Shown here: in pieces, positions 18,759-52,985 of the stretch
Numbering within the stretch: the stretch's first letter is position 1
How the letters are laid out: each line of letters opens with the position of its first letter
Assembly (NCBI RefSeq): GCF_002157145.1
Contig: NZ_CP021361.1
Location: forward strand, 2,039,001-2,103,000
Length of the DNA stretch: 64,000 nt
Source: Acidovorax carolinensis
GTDB lineage: Bacteria; Pseudomonadota; Gammaproteobacteria; Burkholderiales; Burkholderiaceae_C
Direction of reading: 5' to 3'
Program-made: the position numbers and the translations under genes
The notes under the pieces: generated by a model
What the model was told of the DNA's origin: nothing
What the model saw: the letters and a program-made list of their open reading frames with translations, nothing else
Database searches by the model: none

Positions 18759-21043
18759 CAGGCCAGCTTGAACGGCAGCTCGCGCGGCGTTTTGCCCGTG
18801 ATCTGGGCGATGGCGTTGGCAAAAGCCGGTGCCAGCGGTGGCAGGCCCGGCTCGCCCATGCCCTTGGGTGGGTCGGCGCTGGGCACGATGTGCACCGTCA
18901 CCTGCGGCATGTCGGTGATGCGTGGCACGGCGTAGTCGCCAAAGTTGCTTTGCTCCACCACCCCGTCCTTGAGCGTGATGGCGGCGCCCGGCAGGCACAT
19001 GCCCAGGCCCATCAGCGCGGCGCCCTGCACCTGGGCTTCCACGCTTTTGGGGTTGATCACCAGGTTGCAGTGCACGCCTGCGGTGATGCTGTGCAGCTTG
19101 GGCGTGCCATCCTTGACAGACGCCTCGACCACATAGGCCACCACCGACTCGAACGACTCATGCACCGCCACGCCCCAGGCGCGTCCGGCCGCCAGCTTCT
19201 TCTTGCCATAGCCCGACTGGGCCACGGCCAGCTGCAGCGCCGCCTTGTGGCGCGGGTGCTTGTCGCCTATCAGGGCCATGCGGTAGGCCACGGGGTCTTG
19301 CTTGCTGGCACGGGCCACTTCATCGATGAGGGTTTCCATCACGTAGGCCGTGTGGGTAGAGCCCACACTGCGCCACCACAGCACCGGCACATTCACGTCG
19401 GGGTGATGCACCGACAGCTTCATGGGCACGTTGTACGGCTCCCCCATGCCTTCGGTGGTCGTGGCGTCAATGCCGTTCTTGACCATGAAGGCCTCGAACG
19501 GTGAGCCCTTGGTGATGGACTGGCCCACGATGGTGTGGTCCCACGCCAGGATCTTGCCCTGTGCGTCAAACCCTATCTCGGCGCGGTGCACATGCATGGG
19601 GCGGTAATAGCCGCCCTTGATGTCGTCCTCGCGGCTCCAGAGTATGCGCACCGGGGCCGTGATGCCTGCCGTGCGCGCCGCCTTGGCCACGCCGCAGGCC
19701 TCCACCACGTAGTCGCTGGTGGGAATGGCGCGGCGGCCAAAGCCGCCACCGGCCATCTGGGTGTGCACCTTAATGTTCTGCGGCTGCAGACCCAGCGTCT
19801 TGGCGGCTGCCATGGCGTCCAGGCCCGGCATCTGCGTGCCCATCCAGAGTTCGGCCTTGTCCCCGTCCAGCTTGACGGTGCAGTTCAGCGGCTCCATGGG
19901 CGCGTGCGCCAGGTACGGGAAGACGAACTCGGCACTGATCTTGTGGGGTGCGCCCGCCAGCGGCGCCATGTCGGCCTGCATGGCCACGTTGCCCGGCTTG
20001 GCGGCCAGTTCGCGGTACTGCGCCAGCAGCGCTGTGGAATCTGGCTTGGCCACCGCGCTGGTGTCCCATTCCACCTTCAGTGCATCGCGCCCCTGCTTGG
20101 CGGTCCAGTAACCATCGGCCACGATGGCCACGCCCTCGCCGCCCCGGTCGGTGGGCACGCGCAGCACGGCTTTCACGCCCTTGATGGCTTTGGCCGCGCT
20201 ATCGTCCAGCGACTTTACCTTGGCGCCAAACACCGGCGGGCGTGCCACCACGGCCGTGAGCATGCCGGGCAGGCGCACGTCGATGCCAAAGGCCTGCTGG
20301 CCGCTCGACTTGGCCTTGGCATCCAGTCGCCCGGTGGGCTTGCCGATCAGGCGGAACTGCTTGGGGTCCTTGAGGGCGACCTTTTCGGGCACGGGCTGCT
20401 TCATGGCGGCTTCGGCCAGCGCGCCGTAGCCCAGCTTCTTGCCGCCAGGGCCGACCACAAATCCATTGCTGGTGCGCAGCGCCGAAGCGTCCACGCCCCA
20501 CTGCGAGGCCGCCGCCCACACCAGCATGGCCCGGGTGCGAGCGCCCAGTTCGCGGTACTGGGTGTACGAGTTCTTGATGGAGTTGGAGCCGCCCGTGAGG
20601 TGCATGCCAAACGCCGGGTCGGCATAGGCCGGGCTGGCATCGCCGTGCACGCTGCGCACCTTGCTCCAGTCGGCATCCAGCTCTTCGGCCAGGATCATGG
20701 GCAGGCCCGTTTGCACGCCCTGGCCAAATTCCAGCCGGTTGATGGTGACGGTGACCGTGCCATCGGCGTCAATGCGGACAAAGGCCGACGGTTGCTCAAA
20801 CGGCTTGAGGCCCGCAGGCGCGTTGGATGCAGCAGCGCCCTGCGCGCCCGCCACCAGCGGGAACGCGCCGAGCGCAAAGCCCGAGGCCGCAGACAGCTTG
20901 AGGAAGGTGCGGCGCGCCACGCCTTCGGGTGCATCGAATGCTCCTGAATCCGTAGCGCCTTGCGCTTTCTCCATAAGCGCTTGAAGGTGTTTTGGCATGA
21001 AACGGTGCGCATGGCCCTGCAGGGCATGGGAATCGAAGTGCAT
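18758..21043 (-). CDS. Molybdopterin-binding large subunit, isoquinoline 1-oxidoreductase (IorB) type
   Basis: A 761-residue aldehyde oxidase/xanthine dehydrogenase-family subunit. It carries a Tat signal, GVARRTFLKLSAASGFALG at about residues 42-60, so the complex is exported folded. The cofactor-binding regions include the GGGFGRRA loop and the C-terminal GMGEPGLPPLAPA segment with the catalytic Glu. Start at ATG 21043 behind AAGGAG. About 40 residues precede the twin arginines, unusually long for a Tat n-region, and residues 16-29 are encoded by a copy of the dispersed repeat. Partners: the 2Fe-2S subunit 11 bp upstream and the nucleotidyltransferase downstream. The substrate is probably an N-heterocycle or aldehyde, not determined. 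Confidence 0.88.
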   Translation of the reverse strand: MHFDSHALQGHAHRFMPKHLQALMEKAQGATDSGAFDAPEGVARRTFLKLSAASGFALGAFPLVAGAQGAAASNAPAGLKPFEQPSAFVRIDADGTVTVTINRLEFGQGVQTGLPMILAEELDADWSKVRSVHGDASPAYADPAFGMHLTGGSNSIKNSYTQYRELGARTRAMLVWAAASQWGVDASALRTSNGFVVGPGGKKLGYGALAEAAMKQPVPEKVALKDPKQFRLIGKPTGRLDAKAKSSGQQAFGIDVRLPGMLTAVVARPPVFGAKVKSLDDSAAKAIKGVKAVLRVPTDRGGEGVAIVADGYWTAKQGRDALKVEWDTSAVAKPDSTALLAQYRELAAKPGNVAMQADMAPLAGAPHKISAEFVFPYLAHAPMEPLNCTVKLDGDKAELWMGTQMPGLDAMAAAKTLGLQPQNIKVHTQMAGGGFGRRAIPTSDYVVEACGVAKAARTAGITAPVRILWSREDDIKGGYYRPMHVHRAEIGFDAQGKILAWDHTIVGQSITKGSPFEAFMVKNGIDATTTEGMGEPYNVPMKLSVHHPDVNVPVLWWRSVGSTHTAYVMETLIDEVARASKQDPVAYRMALIGDKHPRHKAALQLAVAQSGYGKKKLAAGRAWGVAVHESFESVVAYVVEASVKDGTPKLHSITAGVHCNLVINPKSVEAQVQGAALMGLGMCLPGAAITLKDGVVEQSNFGDYAVPRITDMPQVTVHIVPSADPPKGMGEPGLPPLAPAFANAIAQITGKTPRELPFKLA
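20955..20998. repeat. Dispersed AGCGCTT repeat, copy 3, inside a coding region
   Basis: GTAGCGCCTTGCGCTTTCTC is followed by CATAAGCGCTTGAAGG within the first 30 codons of the IorB-like gene. On the coding strand it specifies the peptide LQALMEKAQGAT. It aligns well with copy 6 in waaA in the same orientation and reading frame. Confidence 0.75.
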
Positions 21044-21054
21044 GGTGTTCTCCT

Positions 21055-21513
21055 TTACGCCAGGGTTTTGGCCGCGTCATGGATGGCCGCGCGGATGCGC
21101 ACATAGGTGCCGCAGCGGCACACATTGCCCGCCATGGCGGCGTCGATGTCGGCGTCGCTGGGTTTCTTCTTGCCCTTGAGCAAGGCGGTGGCGCTCATGA
21201 TCTGGCCGCTTTGGCAGTAGCCGCATTGCGCCACATCGTGCTTCACCCAGGCGGCCTGCACGGCCTGGCCCACCTTGTCCTGGCCCACGGCCTCGATGGT
21301 GGTGATCTTCTGGCCCGCAGCCGCCGAGATGGGCGTGATGCACGAGCGCACCGGCGCACCGTTCAGATGCACCGTGCAGGCCCCGCACAAGGCCTGGCCA
21401 CAGCCAAACTTGGTGCCGGTCATGCCCAGCGTGTCGCGCAGGGCCCAAAGAATGGGGGTGGATTCATCGGCATCCACAGCCGTGTCTTTGCCATTGATGT
21501 TGAGGGTCGGCAT
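21055..21513 (-). CDS. 2Fe-2S subunit, isoquinoline 1-oxidoreductase (IorA) type
   Basis: A 152-residue small subunit with two [2Fe-2S] clusters. The plant-type ferredoxin ligands are in [16 protein letters not shown] (Cys38, 43, 46, with Cys58 following), and the second, all-helical cluster is in QCGYCQSGQ and CRCGTY. It passes electrons from the molybdenum subunit to an outside acceptor, likely a cytochrome c as there is no FAD subunit here. Its TAA stop overlaps the ribosome-binding site of the large subunit. Confidence 0.92.
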
Positions 21514-21689
21514 CGTGGGTTCTCCTGGGGAAAGCGGAAATTCGGGGGGCGCGCTCAGGGCCGCGCAATCAACCAGCCCGGCACGTTACGCCTTTCGTGC
21601 ATCCCTGCGCCCGCAAAAGGTTACTTGGCGCATCGGATGGGCCGTCTGGCTGCACCTGTGCACGCACATGGGCGTGCACAATCGTGCCC

Positions 21690-22328
21690 ATGACCACCTC
21701 CATCGCCGACCTTCGCAAGAGCTACGAGCGCGCCGAACTCAACGAAGACGCCTCGCACGCCGCACCCCTGCAGCAGTTTGACCAGTGGCTGAAAGAAGCC
21801 ATCGCCTCGGAAGTGCCCGAGCCCAACGCCATGACCGTGGCCACCGTGGGCAGCGACATGCGCCCCAGCACCCGCGTGGTGCTGATCAAGGGTTATGACG
21901 AGCGCGGCATTGTCTGGTTTACCAATTACGACAGCCGCAAGGGCCGCCAGATTGCCGGCAACCCCTATGCGGCGCTGCAGTTCCATTGGGTGGAGCTGGA
22001 ACGCGTGGTGCGCATCGAAGGCATCGTTGAAAAGGTCAGCGACGCCGAGAGCGACGAATACTTTGCCAGCCGCCCGCTCGACTCGCGCATCGGCGCCTGG
22101 GCCAGCCCGCAAAGCCAGGTGATCTCGGGCCGCGGCGTGCTGGTGGCCAATGCGGCCAAATACGGCGCGCAGTTCATGCTCAAGCCGCCCCGTCCACCGC
22201 ACTGGGGCGGCTACCGCCTGCAACCCGACCAGTGGGAGTTCTGGCAGGGCCGCAAGAGCCGCCTGCATGACCGCCTGCGTTACCGCCAGGAAGGGGGCGC
22301 CTGGGTGCGCGAGCGCCTGGCGCCCTGA
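21690..22328 (+). CDS. pdxH: Pyridoxamine 5'-phosphate oxidase
   Basis: A 212-residue FMN enzyme that oxidises pyridoxine or pyridoxamine phosphate to pyridoxal phosphate. Typical segments are [34 protein letters not shown] (FMN contacts), [14 protein letters not shown] and the C-terminal [15 protein letters not shown]. It is full length. The start at ATG 21690 is the first that gives the conserved N-terminus; the frame open upstream to 21597 lacks support. Convergent with the AEC transporter gene, 6 bp apart. Confidence 0.95.
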
Positions 22329-22334
22329 GCCAAC

Positions 22335-23282
22335 TTACAGCCGGGCCGCCAGCAACAGCGCCACCGGTACCGTGACCAGCGCCAGCGTGGTGGACACGGC
22401 AATGCTGGCCGTGACCTCATCCTGTGCCACCCCGTAGCACTGGGCGAACAGGAACACATTGGCGCCCACCGGCAGCGCCGCAGTGGCCACCATCACGGCC
22501 AGCGACAACCCCGACAAGCCCAGCGCCCAGCCCAATGCGCCCAACAGCAGAGGGTGCACGATGTTCTTGACCAGGGCAATGCGCAGCGCGGCCTTGAAAT
22601 GCGTGCCCACGGTGCTGAAGGCCAGCGTCACCCCCACCAGCAGCAGCGCCAGCGGCCCCAGCGCCTGCCCCAGCAGTTGCAGCGGCTTGCCAATGACATC
22701 GGGCACCACCAGCCCGGTCTGGGCGAACAACAAACCCACAATGATGGGCAGCGGCACCGGGTGCACGATGCCGTTGCCAATGGCCTGCAGCACCGTGCGC
22801 AGCATCGAATGCTGCGGGCCTTCGCCCGATCGCGCACGCTCGCGCGCCTGCGCCAGCTCGAACACCACCGTGGCGGCGGTCAGCAAAATCAGCGAATGCA
22901 CCGAAATCAGCGTGAACAGCGTGACCAGCCCTGCCTGGCCAAACACCAGGCCCACCAGCGGCACGCCGATCATGATGGTGTTGCTGAAGGTATTGGCCAG
23001 CCCGCGCGCTGCCGCCAGGCTGCCAAAGCCCTGCACCACCAGCGTGACCGCAAAGATCAGCCCGGCGGCGGCGAAGTAGACGGCCACGGGGCCAAAGTCG
23101 AGGTCTTGCACCCGCACCGTGCTCATGGTGCGAAAAAGCAGCGCAGGCGTGAGGACCATGAACACCAGGTTGGACAGGTCCTTGACCGAGGTGGCCCGGA
23201 TCCAGCCGCGCCGCCCCACAAAAAAGCCCAGCGCAATGAACAAAATGACAGGAACCAGGGACGCAAAGACGGGAGAGTTCAC
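22335..23282 (-). CDS. AEC-family (auxin efflux carrier-like) transporter
   Basis: An approximately 315-residue membrane protein with ten predicted helices in two five-helix halves, as in bacterial AEC/BASS-like carriers. The N-terminus reads VNSPVFASLVPVILFIALGFFVG from a GTG start at 23282; this start is chosen because the first helix then begins at once. The frame is open to a TTG at 23345 and no ribosome-binding site distinguishes them. Such carriers often move dicarboxylates such as malate; the substrate is unknown here. Confidence 0.8.
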   Translation of the reverse strand: MNSPVFASLVPVILFIALGFFVGRRGWIRATSVKDLSNLVFMVLTPALLFRTMSTVRVQDLDFGPVAVYFAAAGLIFAVTLVVQGFGSLAAARGLANTFSNTIMIGVPLVGLVFGQAGLVTLFTLISVHSLILLTAATVVFELAQARERARSGEGPQHSMLRTVLQAIGNGIVHPVPLPIIVGLLFAQTGLVVPDVIGKPLQLLGQALGPLALLLVGVTLAFSTVGTHFKAALRIALVKNIVHPLLLGALGWALGLSGLSLAVMVATAALPVGANVFLFAQCYGVAQDEVTASIAVSTTLALVTVPVALLLAARL

Positions 23283-23349
23283 GGTGTGGCGGGCGCGGTG
23301 CGCTGAAAACGAGAGGATTAGCCCGGCAACCTGCGTATGCCGCAACTAC

Positions 23350-23408
23350 ATTTTTGATAGCTGGTAGCGCTTGTCCATCAAGCGCCAGCGGCTATTTTGG
23401 CTTAAAAA
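23350..23408. repeat. Dispersed AGCGCTT repeat, copy 4
   Basis: TTTTTGATAGCTGGTAGCGC is followed by TTGTCCATCAAGCGCCAGCGG and TTTTGGCTTAAAAAT. It lies in the gap between the AEC gene start and the chrA stop and runs up to the last bases before the chrA stop codon. Confidence 0.8.
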
Positions 23409-24640
23409 TCACAGCCACGCGGCCAACACGGCGCCGCCCACGCCGCAGGCCAGCACCACCGCCCAGGGCGGCGCGCGCCAGAACACCAGCGCTACAAAGG
23501 CGGCCAGCGCCAGGCCAAAATCGGCGCCGCTGTGGATGGCGCTGGTCCACACCGGGTTGTAGAGCGCCGCCAGCAGCAGGCCCACCACCGCCGCATTCAC
23601 GCCCGCCAGTGCCGCCTGCGCATGCGGGCTGCGCCGCAGGGGCGCCCAAAACGGCAAAGCCCCGGCCACCAGCAGAAACGACGGCACAAAAATCGCCACC
23701 AGGCACACCACCGCCCCCAGCCAACCGCCCGGCCAGACCTGCATGGACGCACCCAGAAACGCCGCAAAGGTGAACAGCGGCCCCGGCACCGCCTGCGTGG
23801 CCCCATAGCCGGCCAAAAACGCATCGGCCGACACCCAGCCCGGCCCCACCACCTCGGCCTGCAGCAGCGGCAGCACCACATGGCCGCCGCCAAACACCAG
23901 CGCGCCCACGCGGTAGAACGCATCCACCATGGCCAGCAGCGAACCGGGCCACAGACGCACGGCCAGCGGCAGCAGCACCAGCAAGGCCACAAACACGACA
24001 AGCAGCACCCCCCCTGTGCGCCGACGCAGCGGCACATGCAAGCCATCGGGTGCGTCGATGGGCGCTTGGGGCGCCGCCGCCCTGCCCCGCCCAAAAAGCC
24101 ACCGACCGGCCACGCCCGCGGCCAGCATCACGCCCACCTGGCCCACACACCGGGCACCAGCAACACCGCGCAGCACGCCAGCACCATCAGCGTGACCCGC
24201 GCCCGCCCCACGCACAGGCTGCGCGCCATGCCCCACACCGCCTGCGCCACCACGGCCACCGCCACCACCTTGAGCCCATGGATGGCGCCCGCCGGCAGCA
24301 CCGCATGCCCGCCCGCCAGCCCCAGGCCGAACAAGGCCAGCACCAGTGCCGACGGCAGCGTGAACCCCAGCCACGCAGCCAGTGCCCCAGGCATGCCGGC
24401 CCGCATCAACCCCAGCGCCATGCCCACCTGGCTGCTGGCGGGGCCGGGCAAAAACTGGCACAGCGCCACCAGGTCGGCATAACTGTGCTCGGTCAGCCAC
24501 CGGCGGCGCTGCACGAATTCATCGCGAAAGTAGCCCAGGTGCGCCACCGGACCGCCAAACGACGTGAGGCCCAGGCGCAAAAAAATCCCGAATACCTGCC
24601 ATGCAGAGGTGGGGCCACCGCCAGCGCTGTGTTGCGGCAT
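23409..24640 (-). pseudogene. chrA: Chromate transporter ChrA, frameshifted as sequenced
   Basis: Two CHR domains that normally form one ~410-residue inner-membrane protein lie in two frames. The first half (from ATG 24640) has GLTSFGGPVAHLGYF and LCQFLPGP and stops at 24128. The second half (to 23409) has ALVFGGGHVVLPLLQ and QAVPGPLFTF. One extra C near 24140 would restore VWAQVGVM and a continuous frame of the right length. The alternative is two short ChrA proteins coupled through the TGATG at the junction. This is less likely because the break falls inside a predicted helix and three other genes here show the same kind of one-base loss. ChrA expels chromate using the proton gradient. Confidence 0.82.
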
Positions 24641-24657
24641 GGGCGGGGCCGGCGCGT

Positions 24658-25605
24658 TCAAGGCGCTACCTGGACCGTCTCGATGCGGTTTCTGCCGTTT
24701 TTCTTGGCCGCATAGAGTTGCTGGTCTACGGCCTCGATGAAGCTGGAGGGTTTCATGTGGGCGCCCGGCGTGACGGTGCCAACACCGATGCTGACGGTGA
24801 TGCGCTGATCCAGCGGTGAATGCGCATGCGTTATCGCCTGCTTCTGAATCAGCCGCTGGCAGCGTTCGGCGACTTTCAGCGCCACCGAGGCGTCGGCTTG
24901 CGGCAACAGCACAACAAACTCTTCGCCGCCAAAACGCGCAACCAGGTCGCGCGGACCATCCAGCGCCAGGCTCAGCGTTTGCGCAATTTCGATCAGGGCA
25001 TTGTCGCCCCGCACATGCCCGTAAAGATCGTTGTATTGCTTGAAAAAATCGATATCGAACAAGAGGATGGACAGCGGCTGCCCGGTGCTGCCTGCGCTTT
25101 CCCATTCCACTTCAAGACTGGCATCAAACCGGCGCCGGTTGGCGATGTTCGTCAACCCGTCCTTGAATGAAAGCGCCTCCAGCTCTTTTTGCAGAACCAG
25201 CAACTTTTCTTCGGTTTTCTTGCGTTCGCTGATGTCGAACATGAAGCCAATCAGCGCCTCGGGTTCGCCATTGTCCTTGCGCACCACATGCACCACATCA
25301 CGCAGCCACACATAGCCGTTGTCCTTGGTCAGCGCGCGATAGTCGGCTTCATGATCGATCCCGGCCTGGGACTGCGCGACACAGAAATTCACCACATATT
25401 CGCGGTCCTCGGGGTGCATGCGCATCGCCCAGTCTTCCACGGTCATCCAGCTTTCCGGGCTCCAGCCCAGCAGCGCTTCAATCTGGGGGCCGATGTAGGC
25501 AAACTTCTTGGTAGCCCAGTCGATCTTCCACGGGATGGCCTTGGTCGATTCCAGAAGTGTTCTGTAAACCGCGTCGTCGTTTCGGAGGTCACTCACGTCG
25601 GACAT
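24658..25605 (-). CDS. Diguanylate cyclase with PAS sensor domain
   Basis: A 315-residue cytoplasmic signalling protein. A PAS/PAC domain covers about residues 20-140 (with WKIDWATKKFAYIGPQ and a PAC ending in GFMFDISERKK), followed by a short coiled coil and a GGDEF domain at about 155-310. The active-site motif is RFGGEEF, so it is predicted to make cyclic di-GMP; no RxxD inhibitory site is seen before it. The start at ATG 25605 is chosen for GAAGGGA eight bases upstream; an in-frame extension to 25668 is possible. It lies 17 bp upstream of chrA on the same strand. Confidence 0.9.
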   Translation of the reverse strand: MSDVSDLRNDDAVYRTLLESTKAIPWKIDWATKKFAYIGPQIEALLGWSPESWMTVEDWAMRMHPEDREYVVNFCVAQSQAGIDHEADYRALTKDNGYVWLRDVVHVVRKDNGEPEALIGFMFDISERKKTEEKLLVLQKELEALSFKDGLTNIANRRRFDASLEVEWESAGSTGQPLSILLFDIDFFKQYNDLYGHVRGDNALIEIAQTLSLALDGPRDLVARFGGEEFVVLLPQADASVALKVAERCQRLIQKQAITHAHSPLDQRITVSIGVGTVTPGAHMKPSSFIEAVDQQLYAAKKNGRNRIETVQVAP

Positions 25606-25686
25606 GCTCAATCCCTTCGGGGCCAATGGGCTGAAATTATTGTTTACCGTTGTGACAGCATCGTACAACTTCTGCTGCGGCCGATT

Positions 25687-26568
25687 TCAGGGATGCAAGG
25701 GACTGGCCCCCAGCCACATGCCGCTGCGCAGCCCCTCTGGCCGCTCGCGCGACCACACCTGCGCGCTGGCCTCCCAGGTCTGCTGCTGCACATTCAGCCC
25801 GGCATATACGCCATAGCCCGGGCCCGCGCATATCTCGCCGCCCGCGCACAGGCTTTCGCCGGCCTTGATCGCGCCCTGTGTGTGAATGCTCTCGCCCGCC
25901 TTGATGCCCCAGCCCGCCTCCAGGTGCGCCACGCCGGCAATGGCCCCGCCCACCACAATGCCCTGCCCCACCCGCAGGCTCTCGGCTCCCGTCAGGTGGC
26001 CGCTCACGCGCAGGCCCTTGTCGCACTCCACCGGGCCATGCACGATGAGGTCTTGCCCCACAAAAGCACCGCCTTTAAGTTGCAACTTGCCGTGGCAGAC
26101 CACATCCCAGGCCGCGCGCAGGTCGCCTGCGCAGGTAATGTCGCCCTCTACCTCCACGCCCCAATCGGCGCGCACATCGCCGCCCGCCTGTAGCGTGCCC
26201 TGGCTGACGATGATGCTGCCCGCCACGCGAATGCCCTCCCCCGCCACAATGCCGCTGCCCGCCCGCAGACCGCCGCCCGCGCGAATAGACCGGCCGGCCT
26301 GGATCACCGTGGCCACGTCGATGGAGCCACGCACCTCCACCGTGCCGGCAAACACAATGGCCTCGGCCTCCAGCGCATCCACCGCCAGCACTGCATTGGT
26401 CGGCCCAAACTGCGCGAGCAGCCAGCACGCATCCTCCACCCGCCCGGCGTTGACCAGCGTATCCAGCGCCTCCTGGTAGCCGGTGCCGTCCTCCACATGG
26501 CGGCTGAACCAGCGAAAGCCGTCTGCGCACGGGCTTTTTGCCCGCAAAAACTTCTTGGTGAATTCCAT
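25687..26568 (-). CDS. Beta-helix-like repeat protein of unknown function
   Basis: A 293-residue protein not confidently recognised. After ~60 N-terminal residues come about 30 short repeats of the type V/I-x-A-G-x-x-I/L-x-A-G (for example GSIDVATVIQAGRSIRAGGG, then AGSGIVAGEGIRVAGSI), running to about residue 270. The regular spacing of Gly and small hydrophobics suggests a solenoid such as a right- or left-handed beta-helix, as in bactofilins and polymer-forming proteins. There is no signal peptide or membrane helix. The N-terminal ~60 residues (EFTKKFLRAK ... ALDTLVNAGRVEDACWLLAQFG) look helical. The start at 26568 has GGAG at eight bases. No operon partner. Confidence 0.75.
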   Translation of the reverse strand: MEFTKKFLRAKSPCADGFRWFSRHVEDGTGYQEALDTLVNAGRVEDACWLLAQFGPTNAVLAVDALEAEAIVFAGTVEVRGSIDVATVIQAGRSIRAGGGLRAGSGIVAGEGIRVAGSIIVSQGTLQAGGDVRADWGVEVEGDITCAGDLRAAWDVVCHGKLQLKGGAFVGQDLIVHGPVECDKGLRVSGHLTGAESLRVGQGIVVGGAIAGVAHLEAGWGIKAGESIHTQGAIKAGESLCAGGEICAGPGYGVYAGLNVQQQTWEASAQVWSRERPEGLRSGMWLGASPLHP

Positions 26569-27180: not shown

Positions 27181-27504
27181 ATGAAGAAGTCAAACAAGTT
27201 CTCACCCGAAGTCCGTGAACGTGCGGTGAGATTAGTGCAGGAGCACCGGGGGGAGTACCCATCGTTATGGGCTGCCATTGAATCCATCGCCCCCAAGATT
27301 GGCTGCGTGCCGCAAACGCAGCATGAATGGGTCAAGCGTGTCGAAGTCGATACTGGCGTGCGCGAAGGCGTCACCACTAGCGAGGCGCAGCGGGTCAAGG
27401 ATCTGGAGCGCGAGGTCAAGGAGTTGCGCCGGGCCAACGAGATACTGAAGCTGGCCAGCGCGTTTTTCGCCCAGGCGGAGCTCGACCGCCGACTCAAGTC
27501 CTGA
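27181..27504 (+). CDS. IS3-family OrfA
   Basis: A 107-residue DNA-binding protein. It has an N-terminal helix-turn-helix ([16 protein letters not shown] ... [12 protein letters not shown]) and a C-terminal leucine-zipper-like coiled coil ([19 protein letters not shown]). OrfA binds the terminal repeats and modulates OrfAB. A candidate slippage stretch G-TTT-TTC (27462-27468) lies near its 3' end, where ribosomes could move to the orfB frame. Confidence 0.92.
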
Positions 27505-28412
27505 AGGACTTCATTGACAAGCATCGCGATACCTTCGGGGTCGAGCCGCTCTGCAAGGTCTTGCAGATTGCCCCGTCGGCTTATCGAAGACATGCTGCGC
27601 TGCTGCGCGAGCCCCACAGGCGTTGTGAGCGGGCTCTGCGCGATGAGCAGTTAGTGCCGCAGATTCAACGCGTTTGGCAGGCCAACATGCAGGTCTACGG
27701 CGCTGACAAGGTGTGGCGCCAACTGGGGCGCGAAGGTGTTGTCGTGGCTCGCTGCACGGTCGAGCGATTGATGCGCAAGCTGGGGCTGCGCGGCGTGATG
27801 CGTGGCAAGGTCGTGCGCACAACTGTCGGTGATGCCAAGGCGCCATGCCCGCTGGACCGGGTCAACCGGCAGTTCCGGGCCGAGCGGCCGAACCAGTTAT
27901 GGGTCAGCGACTTCACCTATGTCTCGACCTGGCAGGGCTGGCTGTACGTGGCCTTCGTCATCGACGTGTTTGCCCGTCGCATCGTTGGTTGGCGAGTCAG
28001 CAGTTCGATGCGAACGGACTTCGTGCTCGATGCGCTGGAGCAGGCGTTGTACGCACGCCAACCCGAGCAGGGCAGCAGCCTGGTCCATCACTCGGATCGC
28101 GGCTCGCAATACGTCAGCATCCGGTACAGCGAACGCCTGGCCGAGGCAGGCATAGAGCCCTCGGTGGGCAGCAAGGGTGACAGCTATGACAACGCGCTGG
28201 CCGAGACGATCAACGGGCTCTACAAGGCCGAGCTGATACATCGCCGCGCCCCCTGGAAGACCAAGGAGGCCGTGGAGCTGGCCACGCTGGAATGGGTGGC
28301 CTGGTTCAACCATCACAGGCTGCTCGAACCCATCGGGTACATCCCGCCTGTAGAAGCTGAGGCAAACTACTACCGGCAACTCGCCAGTCAGACTGCCATG
28401 ATGGTGGCCTGA
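27498..28412 (+). CDS. IS3-family OrfB, transposase catalytic part
   Basis: About 304 residues in the -1 frame relative to orfA, with no good start codon of its own. It is expected to be made as an OrfAB fusion by programmed frameshift; the frame stays open upstream past 27462. The integrase core has the DDE residues in [16 protein letters not shown] and [10 protein letters not shown]. The coding sequence appears intact, so the element may be active. Confidence 0.9.
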
Positions 28413-39736: not shown

Positions 39737-39825
39737 GGTTTATGTGTCTCAAGGCATGGCGCCACCCGCTTGGCAGGCATGGGGCGCTGCATACCGTTTT
39801 GCGCACAGGGCGCAGGATATGAATG

Positions 39826-39876
39826 AAAAGTGCCCTTAGCGCTTTATAGTTAAGCGCTAGCAGCTATGAAATCAGG
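39826..39876. repeat. Dispersed AGCGCTT repeat, copy 5
   Basis: CCCTTAGCGCTTTATAGTTAAGCGCTAGCAGCTATGAAAT in two parts: TTAGCGCTTT and AAGCGCTAGCAGCT. It lies between the small upstream gene and znuD. Confidence 0.8.
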
Positions 39877-39951
39877 AGTAATTGGCGCGTTGGGCACGCG
39901 CAGTGCGCCGCCCACGCAGCAGCAGGCGTCGGCGTGCAGTGGCGCGCCGGA

Positions 39952-45900: not shown

Positions 45901-46222
45901 GGCCGGTCACACCGTGCCCGGCCTGCCCCGCGCCGAAGCCCTGCTGCTGGCCGCCCGCGTGCGGCTGCGCCCTATCTTGATGACCACGCTGGCCATGATC
46001 TTTGGCATGGTGCCGCTGGCGTTTGCGCTGTCCGAGGGTTCGGAGCAGCGCGCGCCCATGGGCCAGGCGGTGATTGGCGGCGTCATCACCTCGTCGCTTT
46101 TGACGCTGGTGGTGGTTCCGGTGGTCTATTGCTACATGGACGATCTGGCCCGCTGGGCACTTGCCCGCATGGGCCGCGGCCAGCCTGCCCCCGTGCCCCC
46201 TAAAATCAAGGGTTTGTCCTGA
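42995..46222 (+). CDS. RND-family multidrug efflux permease (HAE1 type)
   Basis: A 1075-residue inner-membrane proton-driven pump with 12 helices and two large periplasmic loops, full length. The proton-relay acidic pair is in [13 protein letters not shown] and the Lys is in [13 protein letters not shown]. The first helix contains [17 protein letters not shown]. It takes hydrophobic or amphipathic drugs from the periplasm or inner leaflet. Immediate partner genes are the adaptor upstream and tolC downstream, separated by pcm and a rhodanese gene. The substrate is not predictable. Confidence 0.94.
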
Positions 46223-46245
46223 CCCGCCTTCCCCGGAGAGATTCC

Positions 46246-46959
46246 ATGAACATGCCCCTGAACACGTCTGCCAACATCAGCGACCCCGTTGAACAGGCCC
46301 GCTACAACATGATCGAGCAGCAGATCCGCCCCTGGAATGTGCTGGATGCCGACGTGCTGGACCTGCTGGCTGTCGTGCGCCGCGAAGACTTTGTGCCCCC
46401 AGCCTGCCGCAGCATGGCGTTCATGGACATCGAGATCCCCCTGCTGGGCAAAGATGCCGAAGAGGCCGTGCGCCTGGGCCACAGCATGCTGCAGCCCCGC
46501 GTAGAGGCCCGCATGCTGCAAGACGTGAAAGTTTTGCCGACCGATCGCGTGCTGGAGATCGGCGCGGGCTCGGGCTACATGGCTGCGCTGCTGGCCCACC
46601 GCGCACAAAGCGTGGTCTCGCTCGAAATCGTGCCGGCCCTGGCCGACATGGCGCGCGACAACCTCCAGCGTGCCGGCATCACCAACGCCCATGTGCGCGT
46701 GTCGGACGGTTCCCGCGATGCCGTGCCCGAAGGCCCGTTCGACGTGATCGTGCTCAGCGGCTCCGTGGCTGAAATTCCGAAAAACCTTTTGTCGATGCTG
46801 CGCGAAGGCGGCCGCCTGGCTGCCATCGTGGGCCAGGAACCCGTCATGCGCTTCACGGTGGTGCGCCGCACCGGCGACCGTTTTGAAACCACCCAGCCCT
46901 GGGACACCATGGCACCGCGTCTGGTCGGTTTTGCCGAACCCTCGGGCTTTTCCTTCTGA
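46246..46959 (+). CDS. pcm: Protein-L-isoaspartate O-methyltransferase-family protein
   Basis: A 237-residue SAM-dependent methyltransferase. Motif I is VLEIGAGSGYMAALL (about 101-115). The N-terminal region has MIEQQIRPWNVLD, and a later motif is FDVIVLSGSV. True PCMT repairs isoaspartyl residues; this longer form, linked to rhodanese and tolC in many betaproteobacteria, is annotated as PCMT-family but its repair activity is not shown. It lies 23 bp after the RND gene. Confidence 0.85.
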   Translation: MNMPLNTSANISDPVEQARYNMIEQQIRPWNVLDADVLDLLAVVRREDFVPPACRSMAFMDIEIPLLGKDAEEAVRLGHSMLQPRVEARMLQDVKVLPTDRVLEIGAGSGYMAALLAHRAQSVVSLEIVPALADMARDNLQRAGITNAHVRVSDGSRDAVPEGPFDVIVLSGSVAEIPKNLLSMLREGGRLAAIVGQEPVMRFTVVRRTGDRFETTQPWDTMAPRLVGFAEPSGFSF

Positions 46960-46980
46960 TCCGGTTCCGAGGAGTTCTGC

Positions 46981-47322
46981 ATGATCGACCACGTCCGCCC
47001 CGCACAGCTGTCCGACTGGTTTGCGCAGGCCTTGGCCGAGGGCCAGCCCCTGGTGCTGGACGTGCGCGAGCCCTGGGAGCTGCAGACCGCCAGCGTGCGC
47101 ACGGACGGGTTTGAGCTGGTCGCGATTCCCATGGGCGAGCTTCCGGGCAGGCTGACCGAGCTGGACCCGTCACGACCCCTGGCGTGTCTGTGCCACCACG
47201 GCGCCCGCAGCCTGCGCGTGGCCGCTTTCCTTGCGCAGCAGGGTTTTGGAACGCTGGCCAACATCACCGGCGGCATCGATGCCTGGTCCCGCGAACACGA
47301 CAGCAGCGTGCCGCGGTACTGA
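46981..47322 (+). CDS. Single-domain rhodanese-like protein
   Basis: A 113-residue rhodanese fold with the active-site loop CHHGARS (Cys at about 77) and LVLDVREPWE. The loop fits sulfur transfer. It lies 21 bp after pcm and 61 bp before tolC. Its cellular role in this gene block is unknown. Confidence 0.88.
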   Translation: MIDHVRPAQLSDWFAQALAEGQPLVLDVREPWELQTASVRTDGFELVAIPMGELPGRLTELDPSRPLACLCHHGARSLRVAAFLAQQGFGTLANITGGIDAWSREHDSSVPRY

Positions 47323-47383
47323 ACGGCCGTCAACCGCCGTGTTCCTTTCATCCCCTGCGCACAGTACTTCCTGAAGGACCACC

Positions 47384-48712
47384 ATGACCCCGCTTCGGCT
47401 TCTTCCCCTGACCCTGGCACTCACGGCCGCCCTCTGCACGCCGGCGCAGGCCCAGAGCCTTTCGCAACTGGTGGAAGCAGCGCGTGGCTACGACACGGTC
47501 TGGCAGGCGGCCAAGCTCCAGCTGGATGCAGCGTCCAGCCGCGCCGAGCAGGCCCGCGCAGGGCTGCTGCCCAGTGCCGGGCTGAACGCCGGCGTGTCCC
47601 GCGCCAACACCGAAGTGACCCGTCCCAAGGTGGACTTCAACGGCAACACGCAGAACGTGGGCGTAAGTGCCTCGCAGCCGCTGTACCGCCCGGCCAACCG
47701 CATCAATTTTCAACAAGGCCAGCGTGGCATCGACGTGGCCCGCGCCCAGCTGGACGCCGCCACGCAAGACCTGCTGGTGCGCGTCAGCCAGGCTTACTTT
47801 GACGTGCTGGCAGCCCAGGACACGCTCAGCGTTGTGCAGGCGCAAAAGACGGCGGTCTCCGAGCAGCTGGCCTTTGCCAAGCGCAATTTCGAGGTGGGCA
47901 CCTCCACCGTCACCGACTCCCGCGAGGCCCAGGCCCGCTACGACCTGGTCATTGCCCAGGAAATTGCGGCCGAGAACGACCTGCGTGTCAAAAAGCTTGC
48001 GCTCGACCAGCTGGTGGGCATCACCGGCACCCAACCCCAGCCGCTGGCCCAGCCGGTGCAATTGCCGACCGTGCAGCCCGACGACGTCAACACCTGGGTG
48101 CAAACGGCGCAGGACCAGCAGCCCGGCGTGCGCCAGGCGCAGATTGCCCTCGACATTGCGCGCCTGGAAACCCAGAAAGCCGGCACCGGACATTTGCCTA
48201 CGGTGGATTTGCAGGCCGGCTACAACATTGCGCGCAACCCCAGCGGCACCGTTACCACGCCGGGCATGAACAGTCGCACCAACAATGCCAGCGTGGGCGT
48301 GGCATTCAACCTGCCCCTTTTTGCCGGCTTTTCGGTACAAAACCGCATCAAGGAAACCCTGGCCCTCGAAGAAAAGGCCCAGGCAGACCTTGAAACCACG
48401 CGCCGCAACGTTGCGCAGGCCACGCGGGCGGCGTTTTTTGGCGTGCAGTCTGGACAGGGCCAGGTGCGCGCCCTGGAGGCCGCCGAAGCCTCGAGCCAGA
48501 GCGCGCTCGACGCCAACAAGCTGGGTTACCAGGTGGGCGTGCGCATCAACATCGACGTGCTCAATGCGCAAAGCCAGCTCTTCCAGACCAAGCGCGACCT
48601 GGCGCAGGCGCGCTACAACGTGCTGCTGGGCACCCTCAGGCTGCGCCAGGCGGCGGGTACGCTGACCGAAGAGGACGTGGCTGCCATCAACCGCCTGCTG
48701 CTCCAGCCGTAG
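47384..48712 (+). CDS. tolC: TolC-family outer-membrane efflux protein
   Basis: A 442-residue outer-membrane channel with a signal peptide (about 1-24, ending AQAQS) and two related halves rich in helical heptads. It forms the outer exit for type I and RND exporters. It can complete the RND pump encoded upstream. It is convergent with the large acetyltransferase gene. Confidence 0.93.
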   Translation: MTPLRLLPLTLALTAALCTPAQAQSLSQLVEAARGYDTVWQAAKLQLDAASSRAEQARAGLLPSAGLNAGVSRANTEVTRPKVDFNGNTQNVGVSASQPLYRPANRINFQQGQRGIDVARAQLDAATQDLLVRVSQAYFDVLAAQDTLSVVQAQKTAVSEQLAFAKRNFEVGTSTVTDSREAQARYDLVIAQEIAAENDLRVKKLALDQLVGITGTQPQPLAQPVQLPTVQPDDVNTWVQTAQDQQPGVRQAQIALDIARLETQKAGTGHLPTVDLQAGYNIARNPSGTVTTPGMNSRTNNASVGVAFNLPLFAGFSVQNRIKETLALEEKAQADLETTRRNVAQATRAAFFGVQSGQGQVRALEAAEASSQSALDANKLGYQVGVRINIDVLNAQSQLFQTKRDLAQARYNVLLGTLRLRQAAGTLTEEDVAAINRLLLQP

Positions 48713-48751
48713 CAACCGCGCCGCTTTTGTAGGAAGGCCGCGGGACGCCCC

Positions 48752-51442
48752 TTACAACGTGTGGGTAACCAGCCTGAAATCGGCGTCGTCAGGATAGGGC
48801 TTGACGACAAAGCCCAGGCTGCGCATCAGCCGGAGCATGCCGGGGTTGTTGGCCAGCACCAGGCCCTCCATCTCGGCCAGGCCCTTGTCGCGTGCCACGT
48901 CCATGATGCTCAGCATCAGGCGTGAGCCCAGGCCCCTGCCATTGAAGTCGTCGGCCACCACCAGCGCAAATTCGCAGCTCGACTGGTCGGGGTTGGTGAC
49001 GTAGCGCGACACACCCACGATGCGTTCGGTTTCGGTGACGTCACCGTCGGCGCCCACCGTGCGCTCGCGGAAGACGGCCACCAGCGCCATTTCGCGGTCA
49101 TAGTCGATCAGGGTGAAGCGGGCCAGCATCGAGGCCGGCAGTTCCACCATGGACGAAATGAAACGGAAATACCGGCTTTCGGGTGACAGATGCTGCACCA
49201 GCCCCTGCAGCATCTGCGCGTCGTCGGGATGGATGGGCCGCACCAGGTATTCGCCGCCCCCGCGCATCGGCCAAAGATGCTCGTAGCGCGCGGGATACGG
49301 CAGGATGGCCAGGTGGCTGAAGCTGTCGGCCCGCCCGCCCGAGGTGTTGGCCGCGTGGTCGATGGCAATGCGCGCATCCACCGCCACGACGCCCTGCTCG
49401 TCCACGATGAGCGGGTTGATGTCCATCTCGCGCAGCTGGGGCAAGGCACACACCATTTCCGACACGCGCAGCAGCACCTGTTCCAGCGCATCGTGGTCCA
49501 CCGCGCTGGCGCCGCGCCACTCGCCCAGCGTTTCGGCCACGCGCGAGCGCTCGATCAGGCGGCGTGCCAGAAACTGGTTGAGCGGCGGCAGCTCCATGGC
49601 GCGGTCGTTGATCAGTTCGATCATGGTGCCGCCGGCACCGAAGGTGATCACCGGGCCGAACGGATCGTCGGTGACGAGGCCGATACAGATCTCGCGCCCG
49701 CGCCGGGCGCCGGCCATGTTTTGCACCGTGACCCCGTTGATACGTGCCTGCGGCTGCAGGCGCGCCACGCGCTGGACCATGTCGGTGTAGGCGTCGCGGG
49801 CCGCGGTGCCGCTGTGGATGTTGAGGGCCACGCCGCCCACATCGGATTTGTGGCTGATGTCGGGCGAATCGATCTTCAGCGCCACGGGAAACCCCATTTG
49901 CGTGGCGATCATCATGGCTTCGTGCGCATTGCGCGCAAGGATGGTCTTGGTCACCGGAATATGGAACGCCGCCAGCAGCGTCTTGGATTCCATTTCGGTG
50001 AGCACCTTGCGCCGCTCGGCCAGCACGCTCTCGATGACCAGGCGCGCGCCTTCAATGTCGGGCTTGGCCAGCGTGGACAGCGGCGGCGGCGTTTGCTGCA
50101 GCAACTGCTGGTTCTGGTAGAAAGAAGCGATGTTGCCAAAGGCGCCCACGGCGGCCTCGGGCGTGCGAAAGCTCGGGATGGCGGCGTCGAGCAAGATGGC
50201 GCGCGCCGGCACCACCGAGGCGTCTCCCATCCAGCAGGCCAGCAGCGGCTTGCTCATGCGCTGCTTGACCTCGGCCAGCGCGGTGGCCACGGCGCAGGAG
50301 TCCGCGCCGATTTTGGGTGAGAAGATGGCCAGCACGCCGTCCACCTGCCGGTCACGGCTGGCCGCCTCGATGGCCAGGCGATAGTGCTCGGCGCCAGCGT
50401 CTTCCGACAGGTCGATCAGGTCCGACAGCGACGCCAGGGGCGGCAATTGGGGTGTCAGTGCCAGCACCGATTCGGGCGACAGCTTGCCCAGGTTGAGCAA
50501 AATTTCATTGACCCAGTCGGCCGCCAGCACGCCGGGCCCGCCGCCATTGGTGACGATGGCCAGGCGCTTGCCCACCGGCCGGTAGCGCGATGCCAGGCAC
50601 TTGGCTGCCGAAAACAGCTCGACGAACGAGCGCACGCGCACGGCGCCCGCGCGTCGCAGGGCCGAGTCGAACACATCGTCGCTGCCCACGATGGTGCCAC
50701 TGTGCGTCTGGGCGGCCTCGTTGCCCGCGGGCTTGCGCCCGGCCTTGAGCACCACCACCGGCTTGGCATTGGCGGCCGAGCGCAGCGCACTCATGAAGCG
50801 GCGTGCGTTGGAGATGCCTTCCATGTAGATGACGATGCTCTGCGTGCGTGCATCGTGGGCCAGAAAATCGAGCACCTGGGCAATGTCCACATCCGTGTTC
50901 GGCCCCAGCGACACCACGGTCGAAAAACCCACGGCATTGTTGCGGGCCCAGTCCAGGATCGACGACGTGAGCGCGCCCGACTGGCACACCAGCGCCAGCG
51001 AGCCATCGCGTGCGAGCGGGCCGGCGGCACTGGCATTGAGTTGCAGGTGCGGCCGCTGGAACCCGAGGGAATTGGGCCCCAGCAAATGCAGACCCTCGCG
51101 GCGCGCTATTTTCTTGAGGTTGGCGGCCTGGTCTGCATCCATGCCGCTCGACAGCACCAGTGCGGCACGGCAGCCAATGCGCCCGGCCACCTCCAGCGCA
51201 GCGGGCACTTCGGCGGGCGGCAGCGCGATGATGGCCAGATCGGACTTTCGTTGTGCCAGGTCGGCCAGCGTGCCGCTGGTGTGGGTGTCGACAAACTGCA
51301 GCGTGCCGGCAAAGCGCTGCGCCCGCAGGGCCGGGTGCAGTGCCTGTGCGTACGAGGTCAGCGTTTCGGGTTCATCGGCCTTGCCCGCCAGAATGGCAAT
51401 GGAGGCGGGCGCAAAAAGCGGCGTGAGGTAGTGTTTGTCCAT
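48752..51442 (-). CDS. Pat-type protein lysine acetyltransferase (ADP-forming acyl-CoA synthetase-like plus GNAT)
   Basis: An 896-residue protein. The N-terminal ~460 residues are a CoA-binding/ligase domain of the NDP-forming acyl-CoA synthetase type (for example LVCQSGALTSSILDW and TNGGGPGVLAADWV), followed by an ATP-grasp-like part and a C-terminal GNAT domain (about 730-896, with VADDFNGRGLGSRLM as the acetyl-CoA loop). The layout matches Pat/YfiQ, which acetylates and inactivates acetyl-CoA synthetase. In such proteins the ligase part is usually non-catalytic. The start at ATG 51442 is the first giving the family N-terminus (MDKHYLTPLF). Confidence 0.9.
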   Translation of the reverse strand: MDKHYLTPLFAPASIAILAGKADEPETLTSYAQALHPALRAQRFAGTLQFVDTHTSGTLADLAQRKSDLAIIALPPAEVPAALEVAGRIGCRAALVLSSGMDADQAANLKKIARREGLHLLGPNSLGFQRPHLQLNASAAGPLARDGSLALVCQSGALTSSILDWARNNAVGFSTVVSLGPNTDVDIAQVLDFLAHDARTQSIVIYMEGISNARRFMSALRSAANAKPVVVLKAGRKPAGNEAAQTHSGTIVGSDDVFDSALRRAGAVRVRSFVELFSAAKCLASRYRPVGKRLAIVTNGGGPGVLAADWVNEILLNLGKLSPESVLALTPQLPPLASLSDLIDLSEDAGAEHYRLAIEAASRDRQVDGVLAIFSPKIGADSCAVATALAEVKQRMSKPLLACWMGDASVVPARAILLDAAIPSFRTPEAAVGAFGNIASFYQNQQLLQQTPPPLSTLAKPDIEGARLVIESVLAERRKVLTEMESKTLLAAFHIPVTKTILARNAHEAMMIATQMGFPVALKIDSPDISHKSDVGGVALNIHSGTAARDAYTDMVQRVARLQPQARINGVTVQNMAGARRGREICIGLVTDDPFGPVITFGAGGTMIELINDRAMELPPLNQFLARRLIERSRVAETLGEWRGASAVDHDALEQVLLRVSEMVCALPQLREMDINPLIVDEQGVVAVDARIAIDHAANTSGGRADSFSHLAILPYPARYEHLWPMRGGGEYLVRPIHPDDAQMLQGLVQHLSPESRYFRFISSMVELPASMLARFTLIDYDREMALVAVFRERTVGADGDVTETERIVGVSRYVTNPDQSSCEFALVVADDFNGRGLGSRLMLSIMDVARDKGLAEMEGLVLANNPGMLRLMRSLGFVVKPYPDDADFRLVTHTL

Positions 51443-51626
51443 GGGTCTTGCAGCGGCATCGGGCCGCTCATCAATGATCAACCAGCAGGTGGGTGTGACT
51501 GTGGCACAGCTCGGAGGCAATCGGCACAAAGCCGAGTTCCCGAGGTGACATTTTCAGCGCGGAACCGGCATGGAGCGCGGGCACAGGCCTGGCACTGGCC
51601 CGGAATTCGCGCCCCAGCGGCCCCCA

Positions 51627-52985
51627 TCATGGCGCAGCGGCAATGCCTAGCAGCGCCCCGACGGCAGCGGCGGTCAGCCTTGCGGCGCCCCGGTGCTGCT
51701 GCATGAACTCCTGGGTCAAACCACGGGCGGTGGCAAGCCGGTAGCTGTCGGTGGCCAGATCACAGGCCAGTTCCACGCCCTGACCGATCTCCGCCACACG
51801 GTGGGCCACGCCCTTCTCACAGGCCAGCGCGGCCGCCTCGGCAAAATTGAAGGTGTGTGGCCCCAGCACCACGGGGCAGCCACAGGCAATGGCCTCGATC
51901 AGGTTTTGCCCGCCCAGCGGGGCAAAGCTGCCGCCCAGCAAGGCCACGTCGGCCAGGCCGTAGTACAGCACCATCTCGCCCAGCGAATCGCCCAGCCAGA
52001 CATCGGCGGGCTCGGGGGCGTCGGCCCACTGGCTGCGGCTCGATACGCTCAGTCCGGCGCTGCGCAGCAATTGCTGCACTTCGCCAAAGCGCTGGGGGTG
52101 GCGTGGCACCACCAGCCACTGCACCGTGCCATCACCTGAATTTGCTTCACTATGGATAGCTGCTTGCGCTTTCCCAATAAGCGCTGGAAGGCTTTTTTGC
52201 TTCAAAGCAGCCAACCACATCGCCTCTTCCCCTTCGCGGCTGCTGGCGAGCATCACCACCGGCCGGGCACTGCGCGCGCGCCATGCCCGCCCCCGCGCCA
52301 ATTGCCCGGCATCGGGAACCACGTCGAACTTGAGGTTGCCAAAAACGCCCTGCACCGGCGCGCCGATGGATCGCAGGCGCTCTGCATCGGCCGCGGTCTG
52401 CGCCCAGACCGCCGCCAGAGCGCCATAGGCCGGGCGGGCCAGCGCCGCCAAGCGCTGCGACTTGCGCAGCGAGGTGGCATTGAAGCGCGCATTGGCCAGC
52501 ACCAGCGGTATGCCGCGTTGCTGGCAACCGGCCACCAGGTTGGGCCAGACCTCGGTTTCCATGAGGATGCCGATGGCGGGCCGGAACTGGCGCAGAAAGC
52601 GGCGCACCGCGCCCGGCGTATCCCAGGGCTGCCAGACCTGCACATCGCCCGGCAAGAGCAGTTTCTCGCCCTCGGCCCGGCCCGTGGCGGTGCCATGGGT
52701 GAGCAGCAGGCGCATGCCGGGCAACTGCCGGCGCAACTCGGCCAGCAAAATGGCGGCGGCCCGGGTTTCGCCCAGCGATACGGCATGGATCCAGACAAAG
52801 CCGCCCAGCGGATCGCTGCTGCTCGGGGGGATCAGGCTGTCCATGGGCCGCGCATAACGGCCAAAGCGCTCGCTCACCGCGTGGCCATAGCCGGGCTCGG
52901 CGACGGCGCGGCGCCGCAGTTTGCGCAGCAGCAGGGGCTGGGCAGCCCAGGTCAAGGCCGAATACAGGGCGCGGGCAAGGGACAT
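51627..52985 (-). CDS. waaA: 3-deoxy-D-manno-octulosonic acid (Kdo) transferase with an in-frame repeat insert
   Basis: A 452-residue inner-membrane-anchored GT-B glycosyltransferase that adds Kdo to lipid A precursor. Typical parts are WIHAVSLGE, LTHGTATGR, ETEVWPNL, NARFN, LGDSLGEM, LLGGSFAPLGGQNLIE and GPHTFNF. Between VMLASSREGEEAMWLAALKQ and WLVVPRHPQRF there are ~20 extra residues (KSLPALIGKAQAAIHSE) encoded by a copy of the dispersed repeat. The frame is preserved and the gene looks functional. It starts at ATG 52985. Confidence 0.93.
   Translation of the reverse strand: MSLARALYSALTWAAQPLLLRKLRRRAVAEPGYGHAVSERFGRYARPMDSLIPPSSSDPLGGFVWIHAVSLGETRAAAILLAELRRQLPGMRLLLTHGTATGRAEGEKLLLPGDVQVWQPWDTPGAVRRFLRQFRPAIGILMETEVWPNLVAGCQQRGIPLVLANARFNATSLRKSQRLAALARPAYGALAAVWAQTAADAERLRSIGAPVQGVFGNLKFDVVPDAGQLARGRAWRARSARPVVMLASSREGEEAMWLAALKQKSLPALIGKAQAAIHSEANSGDGTVQWLVVPRHPQRFGEVQQLLRSAGLSVSSRSQWADAPEPADVWLGDSLGEMVLYYGLADVALLGGSFAPLGGQNLIEAIACGCPVVLGPHTFNFAEAAALACEKGVAHRVAEIGQGVELACDLATDSYRLATARGLTQEFMQQHRGAARLTAAAVGALLGIAAAP
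52143..52207. repeat. Dispersed AGCGCTT repeat, copy 6, inside waaA
   Basis: GGATAGCTGCTTGCGCTTTC and CCAATAAGCGCTGGAAGGC, followed by TTTTTTGCTTCAAA, sit in frame within waaA at about codons 260-280. The encoded peptide contains LPALIGKAQAAI, comparable with LQALMEKAQGAT from copy 3. Confidence 0.85.

Follow-up and report, generated by a model that had tools for sequence, protein, structure and literature searches.

Why does the same short palindrome lie in frame in two unrelated protein genes, and is it the encoded peptide or the DNA that is kept there? The question is raised by a stretch of 64,000 nucleotides of the chromosome of Acidovorax carolinensis (contig NZ_CP021361.1, positions 2,039,001 to 2,103,000), here called the window, in which a hairpin repeat with AGCGCTT arms is found inside a gene for an IorB-like oxidoreductase subunit and inside waaA. 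A first-pass annotation of the sequence proposed that the repeat had been exapted twice as a portable peptide linker. On balance, we lean towards reading the two copies as members of an ancient family of positionally inherited DNA sites, similar to repetitive extragenic palindromic (REP) sequences, which would be kept near their consensus by a putative trans-acting partner and whose peptides would be by-products. "Exapted twice as a linker" is thus too small a claim, and probably the wrong way round. The features on which the question turns are the following:

18758..21043, minus strand: IorB-like molybdopterin-binding oxidoreductase subunit (Pfam MoCoBD_1 and MoCoBD_2)
20938..21001, core 20961-20981, minus strand: element copy in the IorB-like gene (51 bits)
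51627..52985, minus strand: waaA, lipid IV(A) 3-deoxy-D-manno-octulosonic acid (Kdo) transferase (NCBIfam NF004386, 9e-133; PF04413, 7.9e-59)
52142..52205, core 52165-52185, minus strand: element copy in waaA (67 bits)

A directional element of 64 bp

The genome is a single contig of 4.12 Mb whose closest named relatives are Acidovorax, and 21% of it was sampled, namely the window and 40 stretches of 20 kb at even spacing (41 pieces, 864 kb). Within the window, the AGCGCTT heptamer is found 30 times, compared with 12.1 ± 4.2 in shuffled sequence (none of 100 shuffles reaches 30), and the pattern AGCGCTT-N(2-20)-AAGCGCT is found 104 times genome-wide and never in the reversed control. The repeated unit is larger than the hairpin: it is an asymmetric, directional element of 64 bp with the palindromic core GCGCTT-N7-AAGCGC, a GGCC block on one side, and an AGCTAT and an AG block on the other. 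Its consensus reads, in order, TTT, GTCAAAT, GGCCTCT, GCGCTT-N7-AAGCGC, AGCAGCTAT, AATTT and AG; it has a single dyad, and the flanks of this dyad are unlike. From 90 copies (core with at most two mismatches) a profile was built. With a cut-off of at least 18 bits it finds 134 copies in the 864 kb, against none when the sequence is reversed, which extrapolates to about 640 copies per genome. The 134 copies scatter almost as if drawn independently from a single profile (mean identity between pairs 0.540 versus 0.543), and the profiles of genic and intergenic copies agree (r = 0.91). Transposition with recent duplicates was rejected, as no near-identical pairs are found among the 134 copies (maximum identity 0.81). 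Among the literature matches listed, subscription papers excepted, there is no published account of this element.

Five of the 41 pieces (L076, L080, L088, L092 and L096) carry no copy at all. L076 has low gene coverage and L096 an atypical skew, which suggests that these two may be imported DNA lacking the sites.

Nucleotide constraint at genic sites

Genic sites keep nucleotides beyond what their peptides need. This was shown with a recoding test, in which the score of the real site is compared with those of 300 synonymous recodings; the real sequence is searched more widely and on both strands, the recodings near one place, which gives a small favourable bias. Of 94 orthologous genic sites, 73 still reach the cut-off of 18 bits, each with a score above those of all its 300 recodings. 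The motif is kept at 18 of 24 sites in the relative G001, 20 of 24 in G007, 16 of 24 in G018, and 19 of 22 in G159, which belongs to another genus. In WaaA it is kept in 61 of 81 sequences, every one of them above all its recodings (mean 43.9 versus -4.0 bits), and in the genus set, own sequence included, 22 of 24 WaaA and 19 of 20 IorB sequences exceed all recodings. In the WaaA insert an alanine column is GCT in 97% of sequences, a codon used for 6% of alanines genome-wide, and further rare codons are fixed (AAT 100% versus 20% in the genome, AAA 96% versus 19%); codon identity in the insert lies above that of other columns (P = 0.003). The modal codons of the IorB insert are again rare in the genome. 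A linker driven by its peptide is not supported: the WaaA peptide varies while the rare codons and the DNA motif persist.

The copies in waaA and the IorB-like gene

Translation of both open reading frames (ORFs) bears out that the two copies share orientation and frame, the encoded peptides being MPKHLQALMEKAQGATDSGA in the IorB-like ORF and KQKSLPALIGKAQAAIHSEAN in WaaA. The former stands N-terminal to what we take, by eye, to be a twin-arginine motif. Both are true in-frame additions, with orthologues from other families lacking them. WaaA matches NF004386 with 443 bits, under the cut-off of 524. In a structure model based on 31 sequences (mean predicted local distance difference test score, pLDDT, 85.3), the longest stretch below 50 is the insert itself, residues 266-285, a predicted disordered loop between a helix (253-265) and a strand (289-294), which agrees with the earlier placement of the insert between conserved blocks. 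An alignment with the solved Kdo transferase 2xci, presumably that of Aquifex, has a gap at this place. That the insert is tolerated as a surface loop is thus plausible.

WaaA was found in 39 of 40 relatives, and 30 loci, own genome included, were aligned. The insert is found in 22 of 23 same-genus relatives (it is absent in G005, locus L027, and decayed in G002, locus L026) and is absent in 6 of 6 aligned relatives from other families. The IorB peptide is found in 19 same-genus relatives with an aligned N-terminus, being degraded in that of G005, and is absent from the aligned N-termini of other families. In a second set of 80 named loci plus the window, which shares species with the unnamed one, 66 of 81 WaaA sequences carry the insert by length. 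The holders include Rhodoferax, Curvibacter, Simplicispira, Diaphorobacter and Comamonas badia, and the insert is gone in Acidovorax L134, L136, L138 and L140, Comamonas L153 and L170, and others. One sequence, L109 (Acidovorax metagenome-assembled genome WOFB25), has a WaaA loop of about 70 residues owing to a second, different-looking in-frame palindromic repeat with the peptide VRAEPVEA...STGSGRT; this loop seems to have taken up repeats more than once.

Number, frames and hosts of the genic copies

The repeat was said to have entered coding sequence twice; the sampled 21% of the genome holds 30 genic copies. A home-made gene caller based on codon usage (756 genes, 81% coding in the sample) placed 29 of the 134 copies inside genes, 6 at edges and 99 between genes. 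The IorB-like copy was called intergenic because the caller picked a later start, and it was added to the genic set by hand. The resulting 30 of 134 (22%) lie far below the expectation from coding coverage (P about 2e-48). By space, 23 copies are found in 52 convergent spaces, 73 in 274 tandem and 9 in 85 divergent ones, and 51 of the 73 tandem copies are nearer the stop. Replication-oriented sites were rejected: ahead of the skew maximum there are 24 plus and 38 minus copies, beyond it 33 and 39, and the order does not reverse.

Within genes, 17 copies have the orientation of the gene and 13 the opposite one, and all six frames are used. Named by orientation and codon position of the core, the frames are same/3 (12 copies, including WaaA and IorB), opposite/1 (7), opposite/3 (4), same/2 (3), same/1 (2) and opposite/2 (2). 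The single frame that the first-pass annotation saw in its two copies is therefore favoured (12 of 30), but 18 of 30 copies lie in other frames or orientations. Its remark that this frame has no stop codon holds, as the family consensus has stops in the other five. The enrichment is significant against one in six (P = 0.002), against the open-frame share of 0.223, computed from the 99 copies called intergenic with the IorB copy still among them (P = 0.02), and within orthologous coding sequence (11 of 26, P = 0.0018). Taken over all six frames, the counts differ from those expected of open frames (P = 0.0004), chiefly because of opposite/3 (4 versus 0.6). The frame of WaaA and IorB is thus preferred moderately and is not exclusive. 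The observations that the annotation had named as decisive against it, a peptide kept by orthologues lacking the repeat or a lack of frame preference, are taken together borne out by half: G005 keeps a related IorB peptide without the DNA motif, and the preference is moderate. As for the opposite/3 copies (L097_7351, L072_16940, L087_17665 and L071_18108), they read through despite the consensus stops, apparently with Glu or Gln codons in their place.

Inheritance in place was followed for 26 of the 29 genic copies defined by the caller, in G001, G007, G018 and G159 and by means of two chimeric queries; left out were WaaA (done separately), copy 61164-61227 (at a gene end) and L084_6669 (doubtful). 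Orthologues were found for 24 of the 26, with two more missing from G159, so that together with WaaA and IorB 26 of the 30 genic copies sit within orthologous coding sequence. At most of the remaining genic sites, the relatives have the element at an unchanged codon position but with a different peptide. Since most tested genic sites are common to the relatives, they are not fresh insertions. Four copies (L100_16568, L093_16559, L103_17546 and L104_1324) point to losses, as they are absent in two or three same-genus relatives but occur in G159. A fifth, L072_11147, scores weakly in each of the four relatives and may be spurious. All of the ten host proteins compared with NCBIfam reach curated cut-offs: DapF, LpxB, MiaA, MoaC, MurE, Dxr, AroE, PurL (partial), GcvP and phosphoglycolate phosphatase. 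Two genes, L104:294-1943 and L093:15278-17920, carry two element copies each, in different frames.

Inheritance in place across the window

Nine element copies are found in the window. Besides the two genic ones, these are:

9967..10030, minus strand: intergenic, between convergent genes (41 bits); same place in G007 and G001
14157..14220, minus strand: intergenic, between convergent genes (66 bits); same place in G007, G001 and G018
23343..23406, minus strand: intergenic (63 bits); weak in G001 (29 bits), none in G007, doubtful in G018
39818..39881, plus strand: intergenic (71 bits); same place in G007, G001 and G018
56322..56385, minus strand: intergenic (71 bits); same place in G007 and G001, absent in G018
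61164..61227, plus strand: at the 3' end of ORF 57872-61222 (59 bits); same place in G001, weak in G007 (26 bits)
63251..63314, minus strand: intergenic (76 bits); same place in G007, G001 and G018

Comparison with largely syntenic 80-kb stretches of three same-genus relatives, together with the genic sites, showed that most tested sites are inherited in place. A counterpart between the same genes and in the same orientation is found for 8 of 9 copies in G007 (one weak), 9 of 9 in G001 (one weak) and 5 of 9 in G018, where a sixth is doubtful and copy 9967..10030 lies outside the coverage. In gapped alignments of intergenic and gene-end pairs, the element aligns in 17 of 17 (z 5.6-16.3). At copies 23343..23406 and 39818..39881, the flanks, unlike the element, scarcely align (z -1.0 to 3.7); the latter copy has an unusual tail that is common to four species. 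An ungapped comparison gave 22-35% identity for left flanks at intergenic sites, a figure that overstates the contrast with the element. Saturated flanks as a proof of constraint were dropped, as gapped alignment did not support them generally. Nucleotide constraint therefore rests mainly on the genic recoding test.

Some further observations concern single places in the window. A terminator-like hairpin adjoins copy 14157..14220 and is conserved too; a sub-threshold match to Leu_leader at 14167-14246 (29.4 bits versus a cut-off of 50), which overlaps both the copy and this terminator, is probably due to chance. Copy 61164-61227 would give ORF 57872-61222 its final residues and its stop codon. 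At 27459-27575 there is a match to the Rfam pseudoknot ALIL (116.8 bits), which we take to be the frameshift signal of IS3-type elements, and an insertion sequence is probably located there.

Distribution and joint loss

The element family is found in one Burkholderiales family, the named members of which are Comamonadaceae. A count in 300 genomes of the order gave 0-4 copies in those outside this family (0-2 for the control). Inside it the motif is unevenly spread, a stricter pattern matching in 17 of 200 genomes. In genus g144, G166 has 128 copies and G351 none. Copies in 49 chosen genomes were counted as pattern matches with at most two mismatches, summed over both strands, which may count a symmetric copy twice. 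Same-genus counts are 56-535 in 22 genomes, 4 in G002 and 2 in G005. These two genomes are also the only failures among 24 in the WaaA recoding test, and G005 is the only one among 20 in that of IorB. With the profile, G005 has no copy, either in 48 kb that are mostly syntenic with the window or in 20 kb from another place, and G002 has one (25 bits) in 80 kb, partly syntenic. Copies are thus shown to be missing jointly in some lineages.

Proposed mechanism and alternative explanations

Genic copies in both orientations, stem pairs without consistent covariation and a free 7-bp spacer fit double-stranded sites that are read in trans, and so do the likeness of the genic and intergenic profiles, the near-independent scatter of the copies and their joint loss. 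In such a mechanism, the sites would be recognised as double-stranded DNA by a putative trans-acting partner, and purifying selection for recognition would keep them near consensus. At a genic site the reading frame would simply pass through the element, and a peptide of about 20 residues would be tolerated in loops or terminal regions, varying as the DNA constraint allows. That the hairpin was instead exapted twice as a linker and kept for its peptide is very improbable. Both copies do share frame and orientation, the peptide persists across the genus, the WaaA insert is predicted to be a disordered loop, and G005 retains its related IorB peptide without the motif; against this stand about 30 genic copies in all six frames, peptides that diverge while rare codons and DNA motif persist, and the disappearance of the WaaA insert from G005 and from Acidovorax L134, L136, L138 and L140. 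An element acting in RNA, as a transcript hairpin affecting mRNA stability, pausing or termination, would explain the bias to 3' ends and convergent spaces, and a hairpin is possible from either strand. This also seems improbable, if less so. A hairpin kept by base pairing was rejected because its stem pairs do not consistently covary. An element acting in RNA is also opposed by the occurrence of both orientations inside genes and the strong directionality of the flanks; no Rfam family scores above its gathering score at the window copies (9000-64000 searched), and many WaaA copies, judged by eye, have the tail without stem pairing.

Spread as a mobile repeat of the REP or REPIN (paired REP) type by a REP-associated tyrosine transposase (RAYT, a Y1 tyrosine transposase), with the genic copies as tolerated in-frame insertions and their likeness due to transposition or RAYT homogenisation, has more in its favour but is still unlikely. 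The element is palindromic, its roughly 640 copies lie mostly at gene 3' ends, its stop-free consensus frame is favoured, and the genome carries a single PF01797 (RAYT-type) gene with an element copy just downstream; in-frame intragenic REPs and palindromic repeats are described in PMC3733652 and PMC10969869. Yet a copy accompanies only 10 of the 30 fetched PF01797 loci, with a single copy in each and none in the other 20, no excess over the density in this genome. PF01797 presence does not track copy number across the 49 chosen genomes, and RAYT as the driver was rejected: G133 (73 copies) and G179 (135 copies) have no match, whereas G040, G125 and G152 have matches and no copies. The foot tag of the palindrome is ATAG in 111 of 134 copies and GTAG in 8. 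Near-identical pairs are lacking, and the presence in G159 of 19 of the 22 genic copies with an orthologue there leaves no sign of recent insertion. Orthologous copies differ little in similarity from other copies, as RAYT homogenisation would have it, and this is one of several results that weigh against sites kept by a trans-acting partner. The similarity of orthologous intergenic copies (0.658) is only a little above that of non-orthologous ones (0.575), so homogenisation among copies may play a part, and pairs with at least 75% identity exceed expectation (30 versus 1.6). The 134 own-genome copies were counted in the same 864 kb that trained the profile. Motif score has been lost at 21 of 94 genic sites, codon identity in the IorB insert is not above that of other columns (P = 0.48), and relatives hold copies without a counterpart in the window. 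Gapped flanks, which reach z >3 on the left in 11 and on the right in 8 of the 17 pairs, are not uniformly saturated, in part because they reach into neighbouring genes or, at copy 14157..14220, the terminator-like hairpin. Two of 16 stem pairs nominally covary (-2/22, P = 0.0085; 1/19, P = 0.03). Finally, the probable joint loss concerns two lineages only, G002 and G005, and the partner protein remains putative.

Relation to known systems and significance

REPs are defined, in PMC3686654, by a 5' terminal GT(A/G)G tetranucleotide at the foot of the palindrome, and PMC3733652 places some of them inside genes. Like the GTAG-superfamily REPs of these accounts, the element is a short palindrome with hundreds of copies, mostly downstream of genes and some genic, in a genome with a RAYT-type gene. 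It differs in its ATAG rather than GTRG foot, in its 64 bp with long conserved asymmetric flanks, in a copy number that RAYT does not track, and in places and nucleotides that are conserved across genera, genic ones too. None of the 30 PF01797 loci has a RAYT gene flanked by inverted element pairs. Rickettsia palindromic elements (RPEs) are, according to PMC10969869, in-frame palindromic repeats in protein genes. The present element resembles them and the Wolbachia palindromic repeats in lying in frame in many unrelated protein genes (PMC10969869 and PMC2229807). It belongs to another bacterial family and is shorter, a distinction drawn from descriptions; here, genic copies are a minority that uses all six frames, constraint is at the nucleotide level, absence is coordinated genome-wide, and the RPE CGTC tag is lacking in the element consensus. 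The ORFs of miniature inverted-repeat transposable elements (MITEs) fuse in frame with host genes (PMC2229807), and the element shares with ERIC (enterobacterial repetitive intergenic consensus), RU and other intragenic MITEs the small size, the dispersal and such in-frame fusion; unlike them, it has no recent copies, and direct repeats of 5 bases at its ends, in small excess (0.104 versus 0.049 ± 0.017), give a weak hint of target-site duplication.

Families of bound sites, such as DNA uptake sequences and nucleoid-protein sites, are vertically inherited, scatter around a consensus and lie in coding and non-coding sequence alike. The element shares these properties; it is much longer than DNA uptake sequences and its binding protein is putative. 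In-frame palindromic repeats are already known from Rickettsia RPEs and genic REPs, and what is new is the constraint on nucleotides across genera together with the coordinated loss.

A stronger form of this explanation is tentative and falls short of what we would expect to hold: the copies would be protein-binding sites under strong selection all along the chromosome, would predate the genera in which they occur and would be written through about 140 genes per genome, where they fix codon choice and add loops to core enzymes, and the loss of one trans-acting factor would lead to the joint decay of the sites and their peptides. If true, the hosts of such written-through sites would be WaaA, DapF, MurE, LpxB, PurL, MiaA, Dxr and others. 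Whether REP-like repeats are selfish or useful, and what their role is, is an old question. Genic copies whose nucleotides are conserved in place across genera, in core enzymes whose synonymous codons would have allowed their erasure, and which are absent wholesale in two lineages make it testable. They also carry a warning: behind the conserved peptides and rare codons of such proteins there may be a constraint on DNA and not the function of the protein.

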